Shown: positions 14,208-23,378 of the stretch, in pieces
How positions within the stretch are numbered: position 1 is the first letter of the stretch
Layout of the letters: each line of letters opens with the position of its first letter
From: Lachnospiraceae bacterium
GTDB taxonomy: Bacteria > Bacillota > Clostridia > Lachnospirales > Lachnospiraceae
Assembly (NCBI GenBank): GCA_024691145.1
Contig: JAILNW010000052.1
Span: 1 to 40,259, forward strand
DNA: 40,259 nt
Direction: 5' to 3'
Program-made: the position numbers and the translations under genes
The notes under the pieces: generated by a model
What the model saw: the letters and a program-made list of their open reading frames with translations, nothing else
Told to the model about the DNA's origin: nothing
Database searches by the model: none

Positions 14208-14236
14208 TTGAAATTTTACTAAATACGTGGTAGAAT
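14208..14236 (+). promoter_or_regulatory. Promoter of amylase 1
   Basis: TTGAAA -17 bp- TAGAAT with TGG extended -10. Confidence 0.6.
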
Positions 14237-14313
14237 TTATCTTGATGGATGTATACGTAAAATTTATATTTGACTATTTGATTAATAGGCATTTGGTTAG
14301 GAGGAATTTTTTA

Positions 14314-16602
14314 ATGGGTAGTAAAGTTTCTAAAAAAGTTTGCTTAGGGGTAGGCTCCGCATTGGCAGTGGCAGCCGGAGTTGCAGTTGCTGTGAATGTA
14401 TCAGCTAAGAAGGATAAAAATGTTAAAGCAGACAGTGTTGCACAGATTAACGGAACTATGTTACAGGCATTTGAGTGGTATGTAGAACCAGATGGAAAGC
14501 ATTGGTCTAATTTAGAGAGCATGGCAGCTGATTTTGCTGATAAGGGAATTACAGCTATGTGGCTTCCGCCAGCATATAAGGCTGATAATCCAGAGAATGC
14601 CGGATACAGTACTTATGATTTGTATGATTTAGGTGAATTTGATCAGAAGGGTTCAGTAAGAACAAAGTATGGAACAAAAGAAGAATATTTATCATTAATA
14701 GATACATTACATGAAAACAATATGCAGGTATATGCAGATATCGTACTTAACCATAAAGCAGGAGCAGATGCTGTTGAAAAGGTAAAGGCATATAAGGTTG
14801 ATGGTGGTTCAAGAAATACCGACATATCTGGTGCATATACAATTGGCGCATGGTGTGATTTTAATTTTGAAGGAAGAAATGGAAAGTATTCAACATTTAC
14901 ATGGGATGCAAGCTGCTTCGATGGTGTTGATTATGATGATGATGCAAATAATGGAAAGGGTGAAAATGCACTTTTCAGATTTGAAGGAAAGAACTGGGAT
15001 AATCAGGTAGACGATGAGAATGGCAATTACGATTATCTTATGTTTGCAGATGTTGATTTCGAGAATCAGAAGGTTGTTGATGAACTTACAAAATGGGGTA
15101 AGTGGTATGTTGACACTGCTGATCTTGATGGATTCAGACTTGATGCTGTTAAACATATAAAGTATGATTTCTACAAGAATTGGTTAACTGATTTAAGAAA
15201 GAGTACTGGAAAAGAATTATTCTCAGTAGGTGAATTCTGGAGTGGAGATGTTGGAAAACTTAATAATTATATAAAGGAAACAAGCGGAACTACTTCATTA
15301 TTTGATGCTCCTTTACATTTTAGATTCTGGAAGGCTTCTAATGATGGTGGCGGATATGATATGCGCTACTTATTTGATGATACACTTGTAAAATCTCAGC
15401 CAACACTTGCAGTTACATTTGTTGATAATCATGACTCACAGCCAGGACAGTCACTTGCTTCACATGTACAGTCATGGTTCAAACCACTTGCTTATACAGC
15501 AATCCTTACAAGAGAAGGCGGATATCCATGTGTATTCTATGGAGATTACTATGGAACAGGAAATAAAGGTATTGAAGCTCACAAGAATTCAATTGATAAG
15601 ATTCTTGAAGCAAGAAAAGATTATGCATATGGTACACAGCATGATTATCTTAATGATGAGAACATAATTGGATGGACAAGAGAAGGAGATTCAGTACATA
15701 AGAATTCAGGTCTTGCAGCACTTATTACAGATGGTGCGGGCGGATCTAAGGAAATGTATGTTGGAAAGAGCCATGCAGGAGAGACTTGGTATGATATTAC
15801 TGGTAACAAGTCTGAAATCATTACAATTGATGGTAATGGTAATGGTAAGTTCCTTGTAAATGGTGGATCTCATTCAATCTGGGTTCCAGAGAAAGAAATA
15901 GTAGGCGAGAATATTGTAAAGATATTCTACTACAACAACAGCTGGGATGATTCATATATCCACTACTCAGTTGCAGGTGGAGAATGGACTAAGGTTCCTG
16001 GTGAAAAGATGACAGTTACTAATAACAAGGACTACAAATATTTTGAGATGAACCTTGATAAGGCAAAGAGCATTACAGTTTGCTTTAACGATGGATCAGA
16101 TAACTGGGACAGCAATAACGGTTCTAACTACACTTTAAGAAAAGGTATCTATACTATTAAAGATGGTAGTGTAAGTGATGGCGCTCCAAATGGAGTTGAA
16201 GTTGTAAATCCAACTACTACACCAGATCCAACTAAGACACCTGCTCCATCAAAGACACCAACACCAACAGAAGCACCAACACCAACACCGCCGGTTGAGA
16301 CAGAGACACCATATGATTATGTTGCAACAGTTTACTATTATAATGCAAATAACTGGAGCAATGTTAACATTCACTACAGCATAGATGGAAAGAACTGGAC
16401 AGATGTACCTGGTGTTGCAATGAAGAAGGGAAGCAACGGATATTACACTTACACACTTGAATTAGGAAAGAACGAAGGTGCAGTTGTTTGCTTCAATGAT
16501 GGCAATGGTAACTGGGACAGCAGAAATGCTCAGAACTACTCAATTGGAACAGGATCATTTACAATTAAGGATGGTAATGTTACAGCAGGAGAGCCAAAAT
16601 AA
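14314..16602 (+). CDS. Secreted GH13 alpha-amylase with two C-terminal CBM25/CBM53-like starch-binding modules (amylase 1)
   Basis: Signal peptide MGSKVSKKVCLGVGSALAVAAGVAVAVNVSA; GH13 motifs DIVLNH, GFRLDAVKH, VGEFW, FVDNHDSQ; two modules of type YYYN..NWSNVNIHYSIDGKNWTDVPGVAM; Pro/Thr linker. RBS aggagg favours ATG 14314 over ORF start 14227. Confidence 0.93.
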   Translation: MGSKVSKKVCLGVGSALAVAAGVAVAVNVSAKKDKNVKADSVAQINGTMLQAFEWYVEPDGKHWSNLESMAADFADKGITAMWLPPAYKADNPENAGYSTYDLYDLGEFDQKGSVRTKYGTKEEYLSLIDTLHENNMQVYADIVLNHKAGADAVEKVKAYKVDGGSRNTDISGAYTIGAWCDFNFEGRNGKYSTFTWDASCFDGVDYDDDANNGKGENALFRFEGKNWDNQVDDENGNYDYLMFADVDFENQKVVDELTKWGKWYVDTADLDGFRLDAVKHIKYDFYKNWLTDLRKSTGKELFSVGEFWSGDVGKLNNYIKETSGTTSLFDAPLHFRFWKASNDGGGYDMRYLFDDTLVKSQPTLAVTFVDNHDSQPGQSLASHVQSWFKPLAYTAILTREGGYPCVFYGDYYGTGNKGIEAHKNSIDKILEARKDYAYGTQHDYLNDENIIGWTREGDSVHKNSGLAALITDGAGGSKEMYVGKSHAGETWYDITGNKSEIITIDGNGNGKFLVNGGSHSIWVPEKEIVGENIVKIFYYNNSWDDSYIHYSVAGGEWTKVPGEKMTVTNNKDYKYFEMNLDKAKSITVCFNDGSDNWDSNNGSNYTLRKGIYTIKDGSVSDGAPNGVEVVNPTTTPDPTKTPAPSKTPTPTEAPTPTPPVETETPYDYVATVYYYNANNWSNVNIHYSIDGKNWTDVPGVAMKKGSNGYYTYTLELGKNEGAVVCFNDGNGNWDSRNAQNYSIGTGSFTIKDGNVTAGEPK

Positions 16603-16628
16603 TAGAACTAAATATACATTATATATAG

Positions 16629-16663
16629 AAGGAACCTCTTTACAAAAAGAGGTTCTTTTTTTG
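16629..16663 (+). terminator. Rho-independent terminator
   Basis: gaacctcttt-acaa-aaagaggttc followed by a T run. Confidence 0.9.
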
Positions 16664-16875
16664 CTAAATAATTAGAGGAGTGTAACACTTTGATTTGACG
16701 GTTAGTTTCGGCAAATATTGAACAATAAATACAAACGAATGTGTTGTCAAAATGTCAGTTTTCGTAAATGTAACGTCTGTTATATTATATATTATACATA
16801 TTAAACAAAAGGTTTATAAAAGTTTACGAAAGTCAATATTTTGATATTTAAATGTTAAAAAAATAATACAAAGTG

Positions 16876-16904
16876 TTGCTAAATAATAAAATATATGGTA
16901 CAAT
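16876..16904 (+). promoter_or_regulatory. Promoter of amylase 2
   Basis: TTGCTA -17 bp- TACAAT with TGG extended -10. Confidence 0.6.
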
Positions 16905-17015
16905 AATATTAGTCGAAAGCACATAATTCTTATACTTACTTGTAGACGTTTGGATGTTTAAGTCGTTGTTTGCTGGTTAATATATTAATCGGCTTTGTAA
17001 GGAGGAATGTTATAC

Positions 17016-19649
17016 ATGGGCGGAAAGTTTTCTAAAAAGTTCTATTTGGGAGCAGGTTCTATAACGGCATTAGTTATAGCTGCTATTGTAGGAATAGCAA
17101 TTGGAACTAATGGTGATAAAAAAGCCAAGGCGGGTAATTCAACTTCAACAGTAACTAATAATGGTACTATGATGCAGGGATTTGAATGGTATCTTGATGC
17201 AGATGGTACACACTGGGCAAACCTTGAAAGTAAAGCAAGTGAACTAGCTAATGCAGGAATCACTTCAATGTGGTTACCACCAGCATATAAAGGTGCAAAT
17301 GGTGGCAATGATGTAGGATATGGCGTATATGACTTATACGATTTAGGCGAATTTGAACAGAAGGGTTCAGTAAGAACAAAGTATGGTACAAAAGCTGAAT
17401 ATCTTTCACTTATAGATGCTTTACATAACAATGGCATTCAGGTATATGCAGATATCGTTCTTAATCATAAGGGTGGTGCAGATGCTAAGGCAAATGTTTC
17501 AGCATATAAAGTAAATGGCTGGTCAAGAGGAACTGATGCATCTGGAGCTTATACAATTGGTGCATGGTGTGTATTTAATTTCCCAGGACGTAATGGACAG
17601 TATTCAACATTCACATGGGATGCAAGCTGTTTTGACGGCGTTGACTGGGATGATAACAAAGGAGAAAGTGCAGTATTCAGATTCGCAGATAAAGGCTGGG
17701 ACTGGGAAGTAGATACTGAAAATGGAAATTATGACTACCTTATGTATGCAGATATAGATTTTGACAGTTCAAAGGTTATTAATGAACTTACTAACTGGGG
17801 TACTTGGTATGTTAACACAGCAAATCTTGATGGATTCAGACTTGATGCTGTTAAGCATATAAAGTTTAGTTTCTATAAGAACTGGTTAACTGATGTAAGA
17901 AATAACACTGGCAAGGAATTATTCTCAGTAGGTGAGTATTGGACACAGGATCTTGGAAGATTAAATAATTATCTTAATGTAACTAGCGGAACAACATCAC
18001 TTTTCGATGTACCACTTCATTACAACTTTGAGTCAGCAGCTAATGGCTCTGGCGGATATGATATGCAGACACTTTTTAATAATACACTCGTTAAGAGTTC
18101 ACCAACACTTGCTGTAACATTTGTAGAAAATCATGATTCACAGCCAGGACAGTCATTACAGTCAACTGTAGCAGCATGGTTTAAACCACTTGCATATACA
18201 GCAATACTTACAAGAGAAGGCGGATATCCATGTGTATTCTATGGAGACTATTATGGAACTAATGATGGACAGATATCTTCATCTAAGGCAGTAATTGATA
18301 AGATTCTTGCAGCAAGAAAAGATTATGCATATGGTACACAGTATGATTACATTAATGATTCAAATATAATTGGCTGGACAAGAGAAGGTGATTCTGCTCA
18401 TGCTAATTCAGGTCTTGCAGCTCTTATAACAGACGGAGCAGGCGGAACAAAGAGAATGTATGTAGGAACTTCACATGCAGGAGAACAGTGGAAAGATATA
18501 ACTGGCAACAAGTTAGAAACAGTAACAATTGGAAGTGATGGATATGGTACATTTTCTGTAAATGGCGGATCACATTCTATATGGGTTTTAAGCTCAGGCA
18601 ATGATGATGACGATGACGACGATGATAACTTAGATCCAGTTGCTAAGATTTTCTACTACAATGCAAACGGATGGAGTAATCCATATATTCACTACTGTGT
18701 TGACGGTTCTACATGGACTACAGCACCTGGTGTTAAGATGACTACTACTTCAAACAGCAACTACTACTATTATGAAATCGACCTTGGAACTGCCAGCAAA
18801 GTAACTACTTGCTACAACAATGGAAGCGGTTCATGGGACAGCAATAATGGTTCAAATTATGTAATTAAGAAAGGTATCTATACTGTTAAGAATGGTAATA
18901 TCTCAAGCGGAGCTCCAAATGGAGTTACTGTAGCAACTGTAACAGCAGCACCAACAGCAGAACCAACAGCAACACCAACTGAGACACCAACAGTGGCACC
19001 AACAGTAGCGCCAACAGTAGCACCAACACCAGAGCCAACAGTAACACCAACTGAGACACCTTCAGGCAATGAGGTAACAGTATATTACTATAATTCAAAT
19101 TCATGGAGCAATGTAAATATTCACTACTGCCCAACAGGAGGAAACTGGACAACAGTTCCTGGTATGGCTATGACAGCATATGGTAATGGATATTACAGCT
19201 ACACAATAGATCTTGGTACTGCAACGGGAGCAACAGTATGCTTCAATAATGGCAGCAGCTGGGACAGCAACAATGGAGCTAATTACACAGTAGGAACTGG
19301 TGTATATACAATAAAGAATAAGACAGTAACAGCAACAGAGCCAGATGGTGGAAACAATACAACTACTAATGAAGTAACAGTATATTATTATAATTCAAGC
19401 TCATGGAGCAATGTTTATATCCACTATTGTCCAAATGGAGGCAGCTGGACAAGTGTTCCTGGTGTTAAGATGACTAAGTATAGCGGAAAGTATTATGCTT
19501 ACACAATAGACCTTGGAAGTGCAACAGGAGCAACAGTATGCTTTAATAATGGCAGCGGTAAGTGGGACAGCAATAATGGATCAAACTACACAGTAGGAAC
19601 TGGATCATATACAGTTAAGAATGGATCAGTAACTGCAACAGCACCATGA
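17016..19649 (+). CDS. Secreted GH13 alpha-amylase with three C-terminal CBM25/CBM53-like modules (amylase 2)
   Basis: DIVLNHKGGADA, GFRLDAVKH, VGEYW, FVENHDSQ; three modules (YYNANGWSNPYIHYCVDG.., YYYNSNSWSNVNIHYCPTGG.., YYYNSSSWSNVYIHYCPNGG..); poly-Asp and PT-rich linkers; RBS ggagg at 17001-17005 favours ATG 17016. Confidence 0.93.
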   Translation: MGGKFSKKFYLGAGSITALVIAAIVGIAIGTNGDKKAKAGNSTSTVTNNGTMMQGFEWYLDADGTHWANLESKASELANAGITSMWLPPAYKGANGGNDVGYGVYDLYDLGEFEQKGSVRTKYGTKAEYLSLIDALHNNGIQVYADIVLNHKGGADAKANVSAYKVNGWSRGTDASGAYTIGAWCVFNFPGRNGQYSTFTWDASCFDGVDWDDNKGESAVFRFADKGWDWEVDTENGNYDYLMYADIDFDSSKVINELTNWGTWYVNTANLDGFRLDAVKHIKFSFYKNWLTDVRNNTGKELFSVGEYWTQDLGRLNNYLNVTSGTTSLFDVPLHYNFESAANGSGGYDMQTLFNNTLVKSSPTLAVTFVENHDSQPGQSLQSTVAAWFKPLAYTAILTREGGYPCVFYGDYYGTNDGQISSSKAVIDKILAARKDYAYGTQYDYINDSNIIGWTREGDSAHANSGLAALITDGAGGTKRMYVGTSHAGEQWKDITGNKLETVTIGSDGYGTFSVNGGSHSIWVLSSGNDDDDDDDDNLDPVAKIFYYNANGWSNPYIHYCVDGSTWTTAPGVKMTTTSNSNYYYYEIDLGTASKVTTCYNNGSGSWDSNNGSNYVIKKGIYTVKNGNISSGAPNGVTVATVTAAPTAEPTATPTETPTVAPTVAPTVAPTPEPTVTPTETPSGNEVTVYYYNSNSWSNVNIHYCPTGGNWTTVPGMAMTAYGNGYYSYTIDLGTATGATVCFNNGSSWDSNNGANYTVGTGVYTIKNKTVTATEPDGGNNTTTNEVTVYYYNSSSWSNVYIHYCPNGGSWTSVPGVKMTKYSGKYYAYTIDLGSATGATVCFNNGSGKWDSNNGSNYTVGTGSYTVKNGSVTATAP

Positions 19650-19683
19650 TAAATATGTTAATAAGTTAATAAATACTAATGAT

Positions 19684-19721
19684 AAAGAAGGGGAATTGCA
19701 GAAATGCAGTTCCTCTTTATT
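19684..19721 (+). terminator. Terminator-like hairpin
   Basis: aaagaaggggaattgca-gaaa-tgcagttcctcttt, then ttta. Confidence 0.7.
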
Positions 19722-19770
19722 TACATTAATTACCAGTTAACGAAAATGTTACGAAAATGTAATAAAAATA

Positions 19771-19799
19771 TTGAAATAATGAATAGATAGTGATATAAT
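19771..19799 (+). promoter_or_regulatory. Promoter of amylase 3
   Basis: TTGAAA -17 bp- TATAAT with TGA extended -10. Confidence 0.65.
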
Positions 19800-19901
19800 A
19801 AATTTAGCGGAAAAAATGAGACTTCGGTGTATGTATAAGGTTCTATTAGCTCAGATAATTGGGGGATTATCTGATTGACTATGTGAGGAGGAATGTTATA
19901 T

Positions 19902-22184
19902 ATGGGCAGAAAGAAAGTTTCGAAGAAGTTATTAATTGGCGCAGGAACAACTGTTGTAATGGCATCAGCCGTAATCGTAGCAACATCTGTAATGTCTAAC
20001 GATGATAAAAAGTCTAAAGCAGGTACAGCAACATCAACTAATGGTGTTATGTTACAGGCATTCGAGTGGGACACAACATATGACGGCTCACATTGGAATA
20101 CACTTGCTGCTAATGCAGAGGAACTGGCAGAGGCAGGCTTCACATCTTTATGGCTTCCACCAGCATACAAAGGAAATGCAGGAAAATATGATGTTGGTTA
20201 TGGAGCATATGACTTATATGATTTAGGAGAATTTGATCAGAAAGGAACAGTTAGAACAAAGTATGGAACAAAAGCAGAGTATCTTTCATTAATTGATACA
20301 TTGCATGATAATAACATACAGGCATATGCTGATATTGTTCTAAATCATAAAGGTGGTGCAGATGCAAAGCAGACTGTAAGTGCTTATAAAGTATATGACA
20401 GTAACAGATCATATAATGAATCTGGAGCATATAGTATAGGAGCATGGTGTGTATTTAACTTCCCTGGACGTAATGGACAGTATTCTACATTCACATGGGA
20501 CGCAAGCTGTTTTGATGGCGTAGACTGGGATGATACTGGCAAAACAAGTGGAATATTCAGATTTGCAAATAAAGGCTGGGACTGGCAGGTTGACGGAGAC
20601 AATGGTAACTATGACTACCTTATGTGTGCAGATATTGATTTTGACAACACTTCAGTAGTAAATGAATTAAAAACATGGGGCGAGTGGTATGTAAATACAG
20701 CAAACCTTGACGGATTCAGACTTGATGCTGTAAAGCATATCAAGTTCACATTTTATAATGATTGGCTTACAACTGTAAGAGCCAATACAGGAAAAGATTT
20801 ATTCTCAGTAGGTGAGTACTCGAGCCAGGATGTAAGCAGACTTAATGCATATCTTAATGTTACTAATGGTGCAACATCATTATTTGATGTTCCTCTTCAT
20901 TATAATTTTTATTCAGCATCTAATAGTTCAGGAAATTATGACATGAAAACATTATTTAACAATACACTTGTAAGTTCAGCACCAATGCTTGCTGTAACAT
21001 TTGTTGATAACCATGATTCACAGCCAGGACAGTCACTTGAATCAACAGTAGCAGGATGGTTTAAACCACTTGCATATACAGCAATACTTACAAGAGAAAG
21101 TGGATATCCTTGTGTATTCTATGGAGATTATTATGGAACTGCTGATGGCAGAATAAGTTCATATAAGAGCGTTATTGATAAGATATTACTTGCAAGAAAG
21201 AATTATGCATATGGTACGCAGCATGATTACCTTAATGATGTGAATATCATAGGATGGACTAGAGAGGGTGACTCAGATCATGCTGGTTCAGGACTTGCAG
21301 CACTTATTACAGATGGTGCAGGCGGAACAAAAGACATGTATGTAGGTGCAAACCATGCAGGAGAAATATGGTATGATATTACAGGAAACATTGGAACTAG
21401 AGTGACAATCGGAAGCACAGGTTATGGTACATTTTCTGTAAATGGCGGATCTCATTCAATATGGGTACCTGAAACTCAGGGTGAGCCAGGAACTGAAAAT
21501 GATGTAACAGTATATTATTATAACAAGAGCAACTGGAGCAATGTATATATGCACTACAAGCCAAATGGAGGAAGCTGGACAACAGTACCAGGTGTAGCAA
21601 TGACTTCAGTAGGAAGTGGATACTATGCATATAACATAAGCCTTGGAACAGCAACAGGAGCAACAGTATGCTTCAACAATGGTTCAAATTCATGGGACAG
21701 CAACTATGGTTCAAACTATTATGTGGCAGCAGGCATAGCAACTATTACAAATGGTGCAATAACAACAACTGTACCTTCTGGTGTAACAGAACTTACTGGT
21801 GGCTCTGATCCAACAGCAGCACCAACAGTAGATCCAACGGTTGAACCAACAGTGGAGCCAACGGTTGAACCAACAGTTGAACCAACAGAAACTCCTTCAG
21901 GTAATACAGTAACTGTATATTATTATAATGCAAGCTCATGGAGCAATGTGTATATTCATTATTGTCCAACAGGAGGAACATGGACAACTGCACCTGGTGT
22001 AGCAATGACTTCATATGGTGACGGATACTATAGTTACACTATAGATCTTGGTTCGTCAACAGGAGCAACAGTATGCTTCAATAATGGAAGCGGATGGTGG
22101 GATTCTAATAATGGATCAAACTATTCAGTTGGAACTGGATCATACACAGTTAAGAATGGTACAGTAACAGCAACAACACCTTGA
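19902..22184 (+). CDS. Secreted GH13 alpha-amylase with two C-terminal CBM25/CBM53-like modules (amylase 3)
   Basis: DIVLNHKGGADA, GFRLDAVKH, VGEYS, FVDNHDSQ; modules YYYNKSNWSNVYMHYKPNGG.. and YYYNASSWSNVYIHYCPTGG..; PTVEPT linker; RBS gaggagg favours ATG 19902. Confidence 0.93.
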   Translation: MGRKKVSKKLLIGAGTTVVMASAVIVATSVMSNDDKKSKAGTATSTNGVMLQAFEWDTTYDGSHWNTLAANAEELAEAGFTSLWLPPAYKGNAGKYDVGYGAYDLYDLGEFDQKGTVRTKYGTKAEYLSLIDTLHDNNIQAYADIVLNHKGGADAKQTVSAYKVYDSNRSYNESGAYSIGAWCVFNFPGRNGQYSTFTWDASCFDGVDWDDTGKTSGIFRFANKGWDWQVDGDNGNYDYLMCADIDFDNTSVVNELKTWGEWYVNTANLDGFRLDAVKHIKFTFYNDWLTTVRANTGKDLFSVGEYSSQDVSRLNAYLNVTNGATSLFDVPLHYNFYSASNSSGNYDMKTLFNNTLVSSAPMLAVTFVDNHDSQPGQSLESTVAGWFKPLAYTAILTRESGYPCVFYGDYYGTADGRISSYKSVIDKILLARKNYAYGTQHDYLNDVNIIGWTREGDSDHAGSGLAALITDGAGGTKDMYVGANHAGEIWYDITGNIGTRVTIGSTGYGTFSVNGGSHSIWVPETQGEPGTENDVTVYYYNKSNWSNVYMHYKPNGGSWTTVPGVAMTSVGSGYYAYNISLGTATGATVCFNNGSNSWDSNYGSNYYVAAGIATITNGAITTTVPSGVTELTGGSDPTAAPTVDPTVEPTVEPTVEPTVEPTETPSGNTVTVYYYNASSWSNVYIHYCPTGGTWTTAPGVAMTSYGDGYYSYTIDLGSSTGATVCFNNGSGWWDSNNGSNYSVGTGSYTVKNGTVTATTP

Positions 22185-22239: not shown

Positions 22240-22911
22240 TTATTTTAAAAATATTATAAGAATAAGTACAATAATGATAATGAAAAGTACAAGTTTATAA
22301 AACTTATTTTTGTTAGAAGATATATTATCCTTAATAACAGGAAATGTATAAAGTTCAATGTCAGGTTTTATCTTCTTAATGATCTCTGATATATAGAGAA
22401 CACTAGGCTTATATAATTCAACCACTTCGTTGGTCTTTTCCTCTCGGCTGTCATTAGTTATACAATAGTTAGTTGCCTTTGCAATATCATCCTTCATATT
22501 GTCGATAAGATTATCATATACAGACTTTGCAAGGAAAAACTTATAATCAATATCTGTAATAGCATTAATGGAATCCATCATATGTTCAGAATAGGCAATC
22601 TCTTTGTTCAGAAGCATAGCAACATTGTAGGAAGTTACATTAGCAGGAGTTGCATCTGCTTCACACAATAATCTGAAATATAATGAGGCCTCTTTAAAGT
22701 TTTTGATTCTTAGGGCATTGGTTGCAAGAACCCAGTAGGAATCAAGCCTGTTCCTATCGTTAAGATTCTCATCAGGAGTAACATCCTTAGCATCTTTTAT
22801 ATTAAAAATCGTTTTACAGTACTTACATCTGGCATTAACGGTGTTAGTTGTGACTTCCAATAAAGTACCACAGCCAGGACATGTAACAATTTTAATGATT
22901 GTATTTATCAT
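22240..22911 (-). CDS. Zinc-ribbon protein with C-terminal transmembrane tail
   Basis: N-terminal CPGCG...CKYC zinc ribbon, helical central region, C-terminal FYKLVLFIIIIVLILIIFLK helix; only convincing minus-strand gene. Confidence 0.8.
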   Translation of the reverse strand: MINTIIKIVTCPGCGTLLEVTTNTVNARCKYCKTIFNIKDAKDVTPDENLNDRNRLDSYWVLATNALRIKNFKEASLYFRLLCEADATPANVTSYNVAMLLNKEIAYSEHMMDSINAITDIDYKFFLAKSVYDNLIDNMKDDIAKATNYCITNDSREEKTNEVVELYKPSVLYISEIIKKIKPDIELYTFPVIKDNISSNKNKFYKLVLFIIIIVLILIIFLK

Positions 22912-22935
22912 AGCAAATCCCCCTTTTCATTTAAA

Positions 22936-23290
22936 TGCTCGGCAGGATACCCCTACTTCTATAAGTCGGGGAGGAATGTGGTTAGGCATTACCCTGCTTC
23001 CTCATTTTGTTTGATATATGGCGGGATTTATGCTGTAAGCCGGCTCCCGCCTAGCCGTAGTGTAGCCTTCGCCAATGTTATCCTGTGGTTTATGCATAAG
23101 CAACACTGTTCCTACCCATCAGAACTGTTTAATCACTTACCGCAGAGCTGCGGATTAGGCTATACGTCCGCAGGTGCCTATATATTCACAGGTAACGTAG
23201 TGCCCGAAGCACTTAGGCTAGTCAACCAGGCTTTTGCAAGCCCCCACTTCTAAGATAGCAAAACTATCGTAAATGGTGGGTTGTTGACAA
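22936..23290. ncRNA. GC-richer, hairpin-rich intergenic island; candidate structured RNA or remnant of an IS200/IS605-like (TnpB omega-RNA-type) element
   Basis: Sharp composition change versus AT-rich flanks; hairpins cccctacttctataagtcgggg (22950-22971), ggcggga..tcccgcc, ccgcagagctgcgg, gcggattaggctatacgtccgc, gtgcccgaagcac, and cccccacttctaagatagcaaaactatcgtaaatggtggg (23241-23280) followed by ttgttgac. Confidence 0.5.
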
Positions 23291-23378
23291 CAAACATCTT
23301 AGTATAGAGATTCTAGTTATTTTATATCACACAAAGAGAAAAATGTCAAATATAGTTACCATTTTTTTACAAACAGGG

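Follow-up and report, generated by a model that had tools for sequence, protein, structure and literature searches.

The window analysed here, a stretch of 40,259 nucleotides from contig JAILNW010000052.1 of a metagenome-assembled Lachnospiraceae genome (MAG; GCA_024691145.1), carries on its minus strand, at 22240-22911 in the open reading frame list, a gene for a zinc-ribbon protein which has no Pfam or NCBIfam match (start at 22911, with a GGGGG ribosome site). A structured island of 358 bp (22931-23288) lies in the 5' UTR of this gene, and is preceded in the window (14227-22184) by three similar genes in tandem, which encode secreted alpha-amylase-like proteins with repeated C-terminal modules. 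A first-pass annotation made from the sequence alone had marked a GC-richer, hairpin-dense island at 22936-23290, limits which fall close to the element ends, and both properties are borne out: GC content is 0.45-0.49 across 22900-23299 vs 0.26-0.36 in both flanks, and the minus strand folds more strongly than its dinucleotide shuffles (z -3.6, 0/100), the plus strand less so (z -2.2).

In a cmscan of the whole 40-kb window, HEARO (RF02033) was the sole Rfam family matched, on the minus strand at 23288-23057, with model positions 1-211 complete, 138 bits against a gathering cut-off of 83 bits, and an E-value of 8.5e-29. HEARO is the omega RNA of IscB, the guide of an RNA-guided DNA-cutting enzyme related to the ancestor of Cas9. 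PMC9755519 puts the share of 5' UTRs with RF02033 matches at 65% for these nuclease genes. The island is a small mobile element from which IscB is gone, and whose guide RNA copy is intact; we regard this identity, and the anatomy set out below, as close to certain.

The suggestion of an omega RNA without a nuclease gene thus placed the island correctly in the IS200/IS605 world, but not in its kind, which is an IscB HEARO rather than a TnpB 3' scaffold, and the family matched is an omega RNA itself, as opposed to some ordinary known RNA. The detailed version of that suggestion, an IS605 tnpB omega RNA or coding remnant read from the plus strand, can point to transposon-like ends and to an open reading frame that does exist there (22978-23253, 91 amino acids, ending ...GNVVPEALRLVNQAFASPHF*). 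This frame is antisense to HEARO, however, which rules out the proposed tnpB tail peptide, and the intact homologue described below encodes IscB in the minus-strand sense. Further, although the element shares a transposon superfamily with IS605 tnpB, and a resident tnpA element has a similar end, its guide lies at the 5' rather than the 3' end of the RNA, its fold is another, it has no tnpB homology, and no tnpB 3' end overlaps a 3'-guide omega RNA. With HEARO as the only Rfam family in the window, the plus-strand reading is already refuted, and retains next to no probability.

Structure of the element and deletion of iscB

All parts of the element lie on the minus strand. Its left end (23288) was set by the start of HEARO and the divergent flanks of relatives, and its right end (22931) by alignment with an intact viral relative, L166, and by the ATGA common to relatives. 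From the left, the omega RNA scaffold (23057-23288) opens with the omega-RNA-side transposon-end hairpin, which is also the guide adaptor hairpin (23243-23280; matching CCCACCACTTCTAAAATAGCTTCGCTATTTTAGAAGTTGGG in L166), and contains a nexus pseudoknot, formed between the loop TAGCC (5' strand, 23159-23163) and GGCTA (3' strand, 23063-23067). Outside the Rfam model, a 3' terminal hairpin (GGCGGGA...TCCCGCC, 23020-23051) occupies the same position as in L166 and in a resident IscB locus, C423. There follow a remnant of the iscB 3' end (22982-23002; AGG AAG CAG GGT AAT GCC TAA, RKQGNA*), the far-end transposon hairpin TTCCTCCCCGACTTATAGAAGTAGGGG (22950-22976; matching TTTCTCCCAGACTTATAGAAGTTTGGG in L166) and, just outside the far end, the ATGA target motif (TAM; 22927-22930), which likewise directly follows the other true orphans, as we call IscB-less copies.

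From the end of the scaffold (23057) to that of the element (22931) there are only 126 nt, and where a cis-acting system would have iscB directly 3' of the omega RNA, six C-terminal codons and a stop are left; no RRXRR match was obtained on this contig. Both transposon ends are present and the transposase is absent, as in non-autonomous IS200/IS605-type elements, and the MITE-like character proposed for the island is upheld by the alignment of both ends with intact L166. The CCCCyACTTCTA repeat noticed at 22950 and 23241 is real, and present in both transposon-end hairpins. Among the individual hairpins listed, those at 22950-22971, 23020-23051, 23151-23172, 23243-23280 and one near 23200 stand, whereas the ccgcagagctgcgg palindrome near 23141 forms no helix in the real fold, both of its arms being part of a neighbouring stem.

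The nearest sequence found is L166, a viral contig of 253 kb (IMGVR_UViG_3300028591_000074) with an omega RNA 85% identical to that of the element, and with a complete element in which a 415-aa IscB lies between the ends. The two align from end to end, with a common start (GTCAAy-AACCCACCA), scaffold and 3' hairpin position, and are alike in their ends, linker and ATGA right flank; they differ in that L166 has its 415-aa IscB where the 358-bp element has a deletion. After the 3' hairpin, L166 continues with 415 iscB codons ending RIQGTA*, the far-end hairpin GACTTATAGAAGT, and TATCCTGC...ATTTA followed by ATGAA. As L166 is laid out alike, but with IscB intact between its ends, the element is, on this alignment, an internal deletion derivative of an IS200/IS605-type IscB element, from which iscB was removed except for its last six codons, the latter being indicated by RKQGNA* directly before the far-end hairpin, just as RIQGTA* is in L166. 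L166 has alike short sequences at its ribosome site (ACGAAAGG) and near the end of iscB (ACGGAAAGG), and slippage between sequences of these types is a possible deletion route.

Conservation of the guide RNA fold

Covariation, the lack of which was to have spoken against a structured RNA, is strong. Across 20 omega RNAs (10 IscB-less and 10 with IscB), standard pairs fill 92.8% of pair cells; column shuffling lowers this share to 77%, and sliding the partners to 32-44%. Change on both sides is seen in 33/52 pairs. The element forms 51/52 core pairs. Relative to L166, 14 pairs have changed on both sides in a compensatory manner and one is broken; relative to C423 the counts are 12 and two, where random placement of the same substitutions yields a mean of 1.9 double changes (maximum 7). 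The 3' terminal hairpin adds five compensatory pairs and one broken pair relative to L166. The TAGCC/GGCTA nexus pseudoknot is kept and covaries across the 20 sequences (94/100 pairs vs a shuffle mean of 62, maximum 78); its disruption abolishes editing by OgeuIscB (PMC9640706). Judged from this pattern, the omega RNA has been under selection, with covariation not distinguishing the period before IscB loss from that after it.

These data bear on the main rival to a working guide RNA, namely an inert or decaying relic: an IscB element that was moved once, passively, by TnpA, or deleted in place, and whose RNA meets no IscB any more. The preserved structure would then reflect either a loss too recent for decay or compensatory changes made before iscB disappeared. 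The element is single-copy in its own genome, many carriers of similar elements have no detectable IscB, and, with IscB still present in the nearest relative, it cannot be told whether the changes came before or after its loss. A truncated omega RNA also occurs in an element on contig C212 of this genome. Set against this, the RNA shows no decay, its bit score equalling those of IscB-linked copies in the same genome (138 vs 136.6-142), with 51/52 pairs formed and the pseudoknot intact. On this score, and given such extensive compensatory change, the word 'remnant' used in the first-pass annotation is too strong. Moreover, in the RUG066/G092 family two orphans with a common deletion junction are four compensatory changes apart, with no broken pairs. 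A relic is nevertheless a serious possibility, to which we assign a minority share of the probability.

Insertion site, predicted guide and predicted transcription

Because the genuine orphan loci all end directly before ATGA, and the flanks of sister copies diverge just after it, ATGA is taken as the target motif. This agrees with the NTGA-type TAMs of IsrB (PMC9581776). Left flanks differ between all insertions, and directly 5' of the scaffold a predicted guide (23289-23313, ...CTATACTAAGATGTTTGTT) derives from the flank, as in every copy, and differs in each. The element lies between the ribosome site of the zinc-ribbon gene and a promoter-like sequence (TTGACA-17-TATAAA, 11/12; 23321-23349), which, read from the sequence, would start a transcript near 23313 with a guide of about 25 nt. 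This predicted transcript would cross the element and extend into the zinc-ribbon gene. Of the 27-nt guide of OgeuIscB, about 17 nt are used (PMC9640706).

The last 19 nt of the guide match their own genome at their own site only; no other target was present there at 0-2 mismatches, and 3-mismatch matches were at control level. This is as expected, as the target of a homing guide would be the empty site, predicted here as ...GATGTTTGTT joined to ATGAAAAGG..., with TCTATACTAAGATGTTTGTT then ATGAAA as the predicted guide target in the restored site. A search for the empty site via zinc-ribbon orthologues found no orthologue in 397 genomes of the family.

The position between promoter and ribosome site, together with another orphan just upstream of argF in G092, might also indicate a domesticated 5' UTR element which regulates the zinc-ribbon gene, through its fold or through bound IscB, or a regulator acting in trans. 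Such elements do, however, lie upstream of many unrelated genes, as expected where ATGA is the target motif, with no conserved gene association, and the guide matches its own site only, so that we consider domestication improbable.

In this clade, the end of an IscB element often coincides exactly with the start codon of a host gene, where ATGA or ATGG is the target motif (L024 C423, L045, L048, L049, L050, L065, L085, L090, L099-L127 and L166). The left flank, which yields the guide, usually holds the ribosome site of the host gene, with a Shine-Dalgarno-like motif in 14/17 left flanks vs 3.5 expected from upstream windows. An open reading frame starts within 170 nt after iscB in 29/34 cases, mostly right behind the far end, and a replacement ribosome site (AAGGTGATTTATG) is present in some of the far ends. 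This start-codon bias may in part reflect selection against gene disruption.

Omega RNAs, IscB and transposases in the host genome

The same MAG holds about eight HEARO copies, most of which, apart from the element, end at contig breaks, and one intact IscB (C423:4409-5653, guided_IscB, 394 bits) directly 3' of its own HEARO. The omega RNA of this resident IscB differs from that of the element by about a quarter. A check for further copies, as would suit a multi-copy element, found it to be single in its own genome, the other HEARO copies being 76-77% identical and of another subfamily.

A second internal-deletion element is present in this genome (L030; G000:C212:8752-8961), in which the omega-RNA-side end and the first ~70 nt of the omega RNA are joined to IscB C-terminal codons and the far end; here the scaffold itself is lost, and the omega RNA is truncated.

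The resident IS605-type tnpA elements, L020 (C415), L021 (C395) and L022 (C2), have two types of end. The far end of the element, in plus orientation, aligns with the left end of C415 (score 36 vs a shuffle maximum of 34, 0/300 shuffles), whereas the ends of C395 and C2 resemble those of the resident IscB elements instead; as only the C415 end matches, its TnpA is the best candidate for moving the element. Sequence similarity of the ends suggests two mobilisation groups among these tnpA elements.

Similar IscB-less elements in other genomes

Similar elements were sought as a scaffold 3' motif and a far-end hairpin 37-97 nt apart, a spacing which leaves no room for iscB. A scan of 85,000 genomes turned up 13 loci with this orphan pattern, of which 12 are genuine, and two further loci were viral; 10 of the loci pass the Rfam cut-off, and L083, L085, L086 and L089 are incomplete, through truncation or at a contig end. 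The match at L079, inside a Rhizobiaceae gene and with no Rfam match, was rejected as chance. IscB-less elements are found in Lachnospiraceae, other Clostridia, Selenomonadaceae, Synergistaceae and phage contigs, from gut and rumen hosts. The Clostridia MAG G421 has three copies, two of which (L082 and L084) share an identical scaffold and occupy different sites, while the third is shortened; RUG066 (=G092) has at least four, with one common deletion junction; and a different subfamily is represented by two further IscB-less elements, in G020 and G215. Of 20 viral omega-RNA loci retrieved by scaffold pattern, one of them at the edge of its retrieved stretch, iscB is present in 17 and absent in two.

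In L160, a viral IscB-less locus, the far-end hairpin is gone too, leaving the scaffold, the ribosome site and the start of the host gene. At L032 (G034:C1, 2589-2968), a HEARO-like scaffold directly follows a short CRISPR-like array (36-nt repeats, 66-nt spacing) and holds an antirepeat at its 5' end (GTACTCAAATTTGAT), making this a CRISPR-linked omega RNA without IscB on its 3.1-kb contig.

In a tree of these sequences, IscB-less copies are scattered among IscB-linked ones (pCY360 beside G126:C8, for example, and L087 beside G326), which suggests repeated, independent losses of IscB. The tree has 10 label changes for orphans, with clustering not beyond chance, many inner branches being weak and the losses undated. 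No RRXRR protein was found in five IscB-less carriers (G421, G422, G424, G215 and G020), and no Y1 transposase was detected in four (G092, G422, G425 and G020), most carriers being incomplete MAGs, with only G215 (98%) and G092 (96%) near complete. Plasmid and phage records yielded no near copy of the whole element, and partial omega-RNA matches only. In the literature collection searched, nothing was found on IscB-less elements.

Proposed mechanism and implications

The element resembles known HEARO/IscB omega RNAs in its full-length match, guide adaptor stem, central stem, nexus pseudoknot and flank-derived 5' guide, and departs from them in that its scaffold is followed not by iscB but by an extra 3' hairpin, and then by a transposon end. 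IS200/IS605-derived elements of the PATE or MITE type are short, lack a transposase, have subterminal hairpins at their ends, and are presumably moved by TnpA. The element is likewise short, with hairpins at both ends and no transposase, and is presumably moved by TnpA in trans, but it holds a complete, covarying guide-RNA scaffold between its ends. Altae-Tran et al. (2021) reportedly described standalone omega RNAs beside IscB loci, and proposed that they act in trans; those have in common with our element an omega RNA without an adjoining IscB, whereas the present analysis documents the far transposon end and the deletion junction, as well as families with several copies and hosts in which no IscB was detected.

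On balance, we somewhat favour a non-autonomous derivative of an IscB element that is moved by TnpA and guides IscB in trans. An internal deletion cost the ancestral element its iscB except the last codons, and left both transposon ends and a complete omega RNA. Insertion just before ATGA, in the 5' UTR of the zinc-ribbon gene, placed it behind the predicted host promoter TTGACA-17-TATAAA, from which a guide of ~25 nt of flanking sequence would be transcribed joined to the scaffold. A TnpA encoded elsewhere, such as that of C415 in the same genome, would move the element, and an IscB acting in trans, either the resident C423 enzyme or a phage-borne one such as that of L166, would load its omega RNA; the loaded IscB might cut copies of the locus which lack the element, with repair restoring it (homing or retention). 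Use of the omega RNA by IscB in trans is the best-supported mechanism, and probably, by a modest measure, the correct one. Counted against this explanation are the single copy in the genome, the divergence of the resident IscB's omega RNA, the search for an empty site that found none, and several carriers without detectable IscB, some of them also without a Y1 transposase.

More broadly, and tentatively, omega-RNA elements without a nuclease could be a recurrent class of satellites, arising independently and dependent on IscB transposons, in bacteria of the gut and rumen and in the phages of these bacteria. They would borrow TnpA and IscB from other elements or phages, keep their guide RNA under selection, and need nothing but RNA of their own to home to, or defend, the sites they occupy; we hold this wider view to be possible, though less likely than not. 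Cas9 probably descends from IscB and its omega RNA, and elements that consist of guide RNA only part the RNA from its nuclease, as tracrRNA and CRISPR arrays later did. Such elements would allow tests of IscB action in trans, of a homing advantage conferred by RNA alone, and of the separation of nuclease and guide in evolution, and the family documented here offers compact, natural omega-RNA scaffolds with strong covariation.
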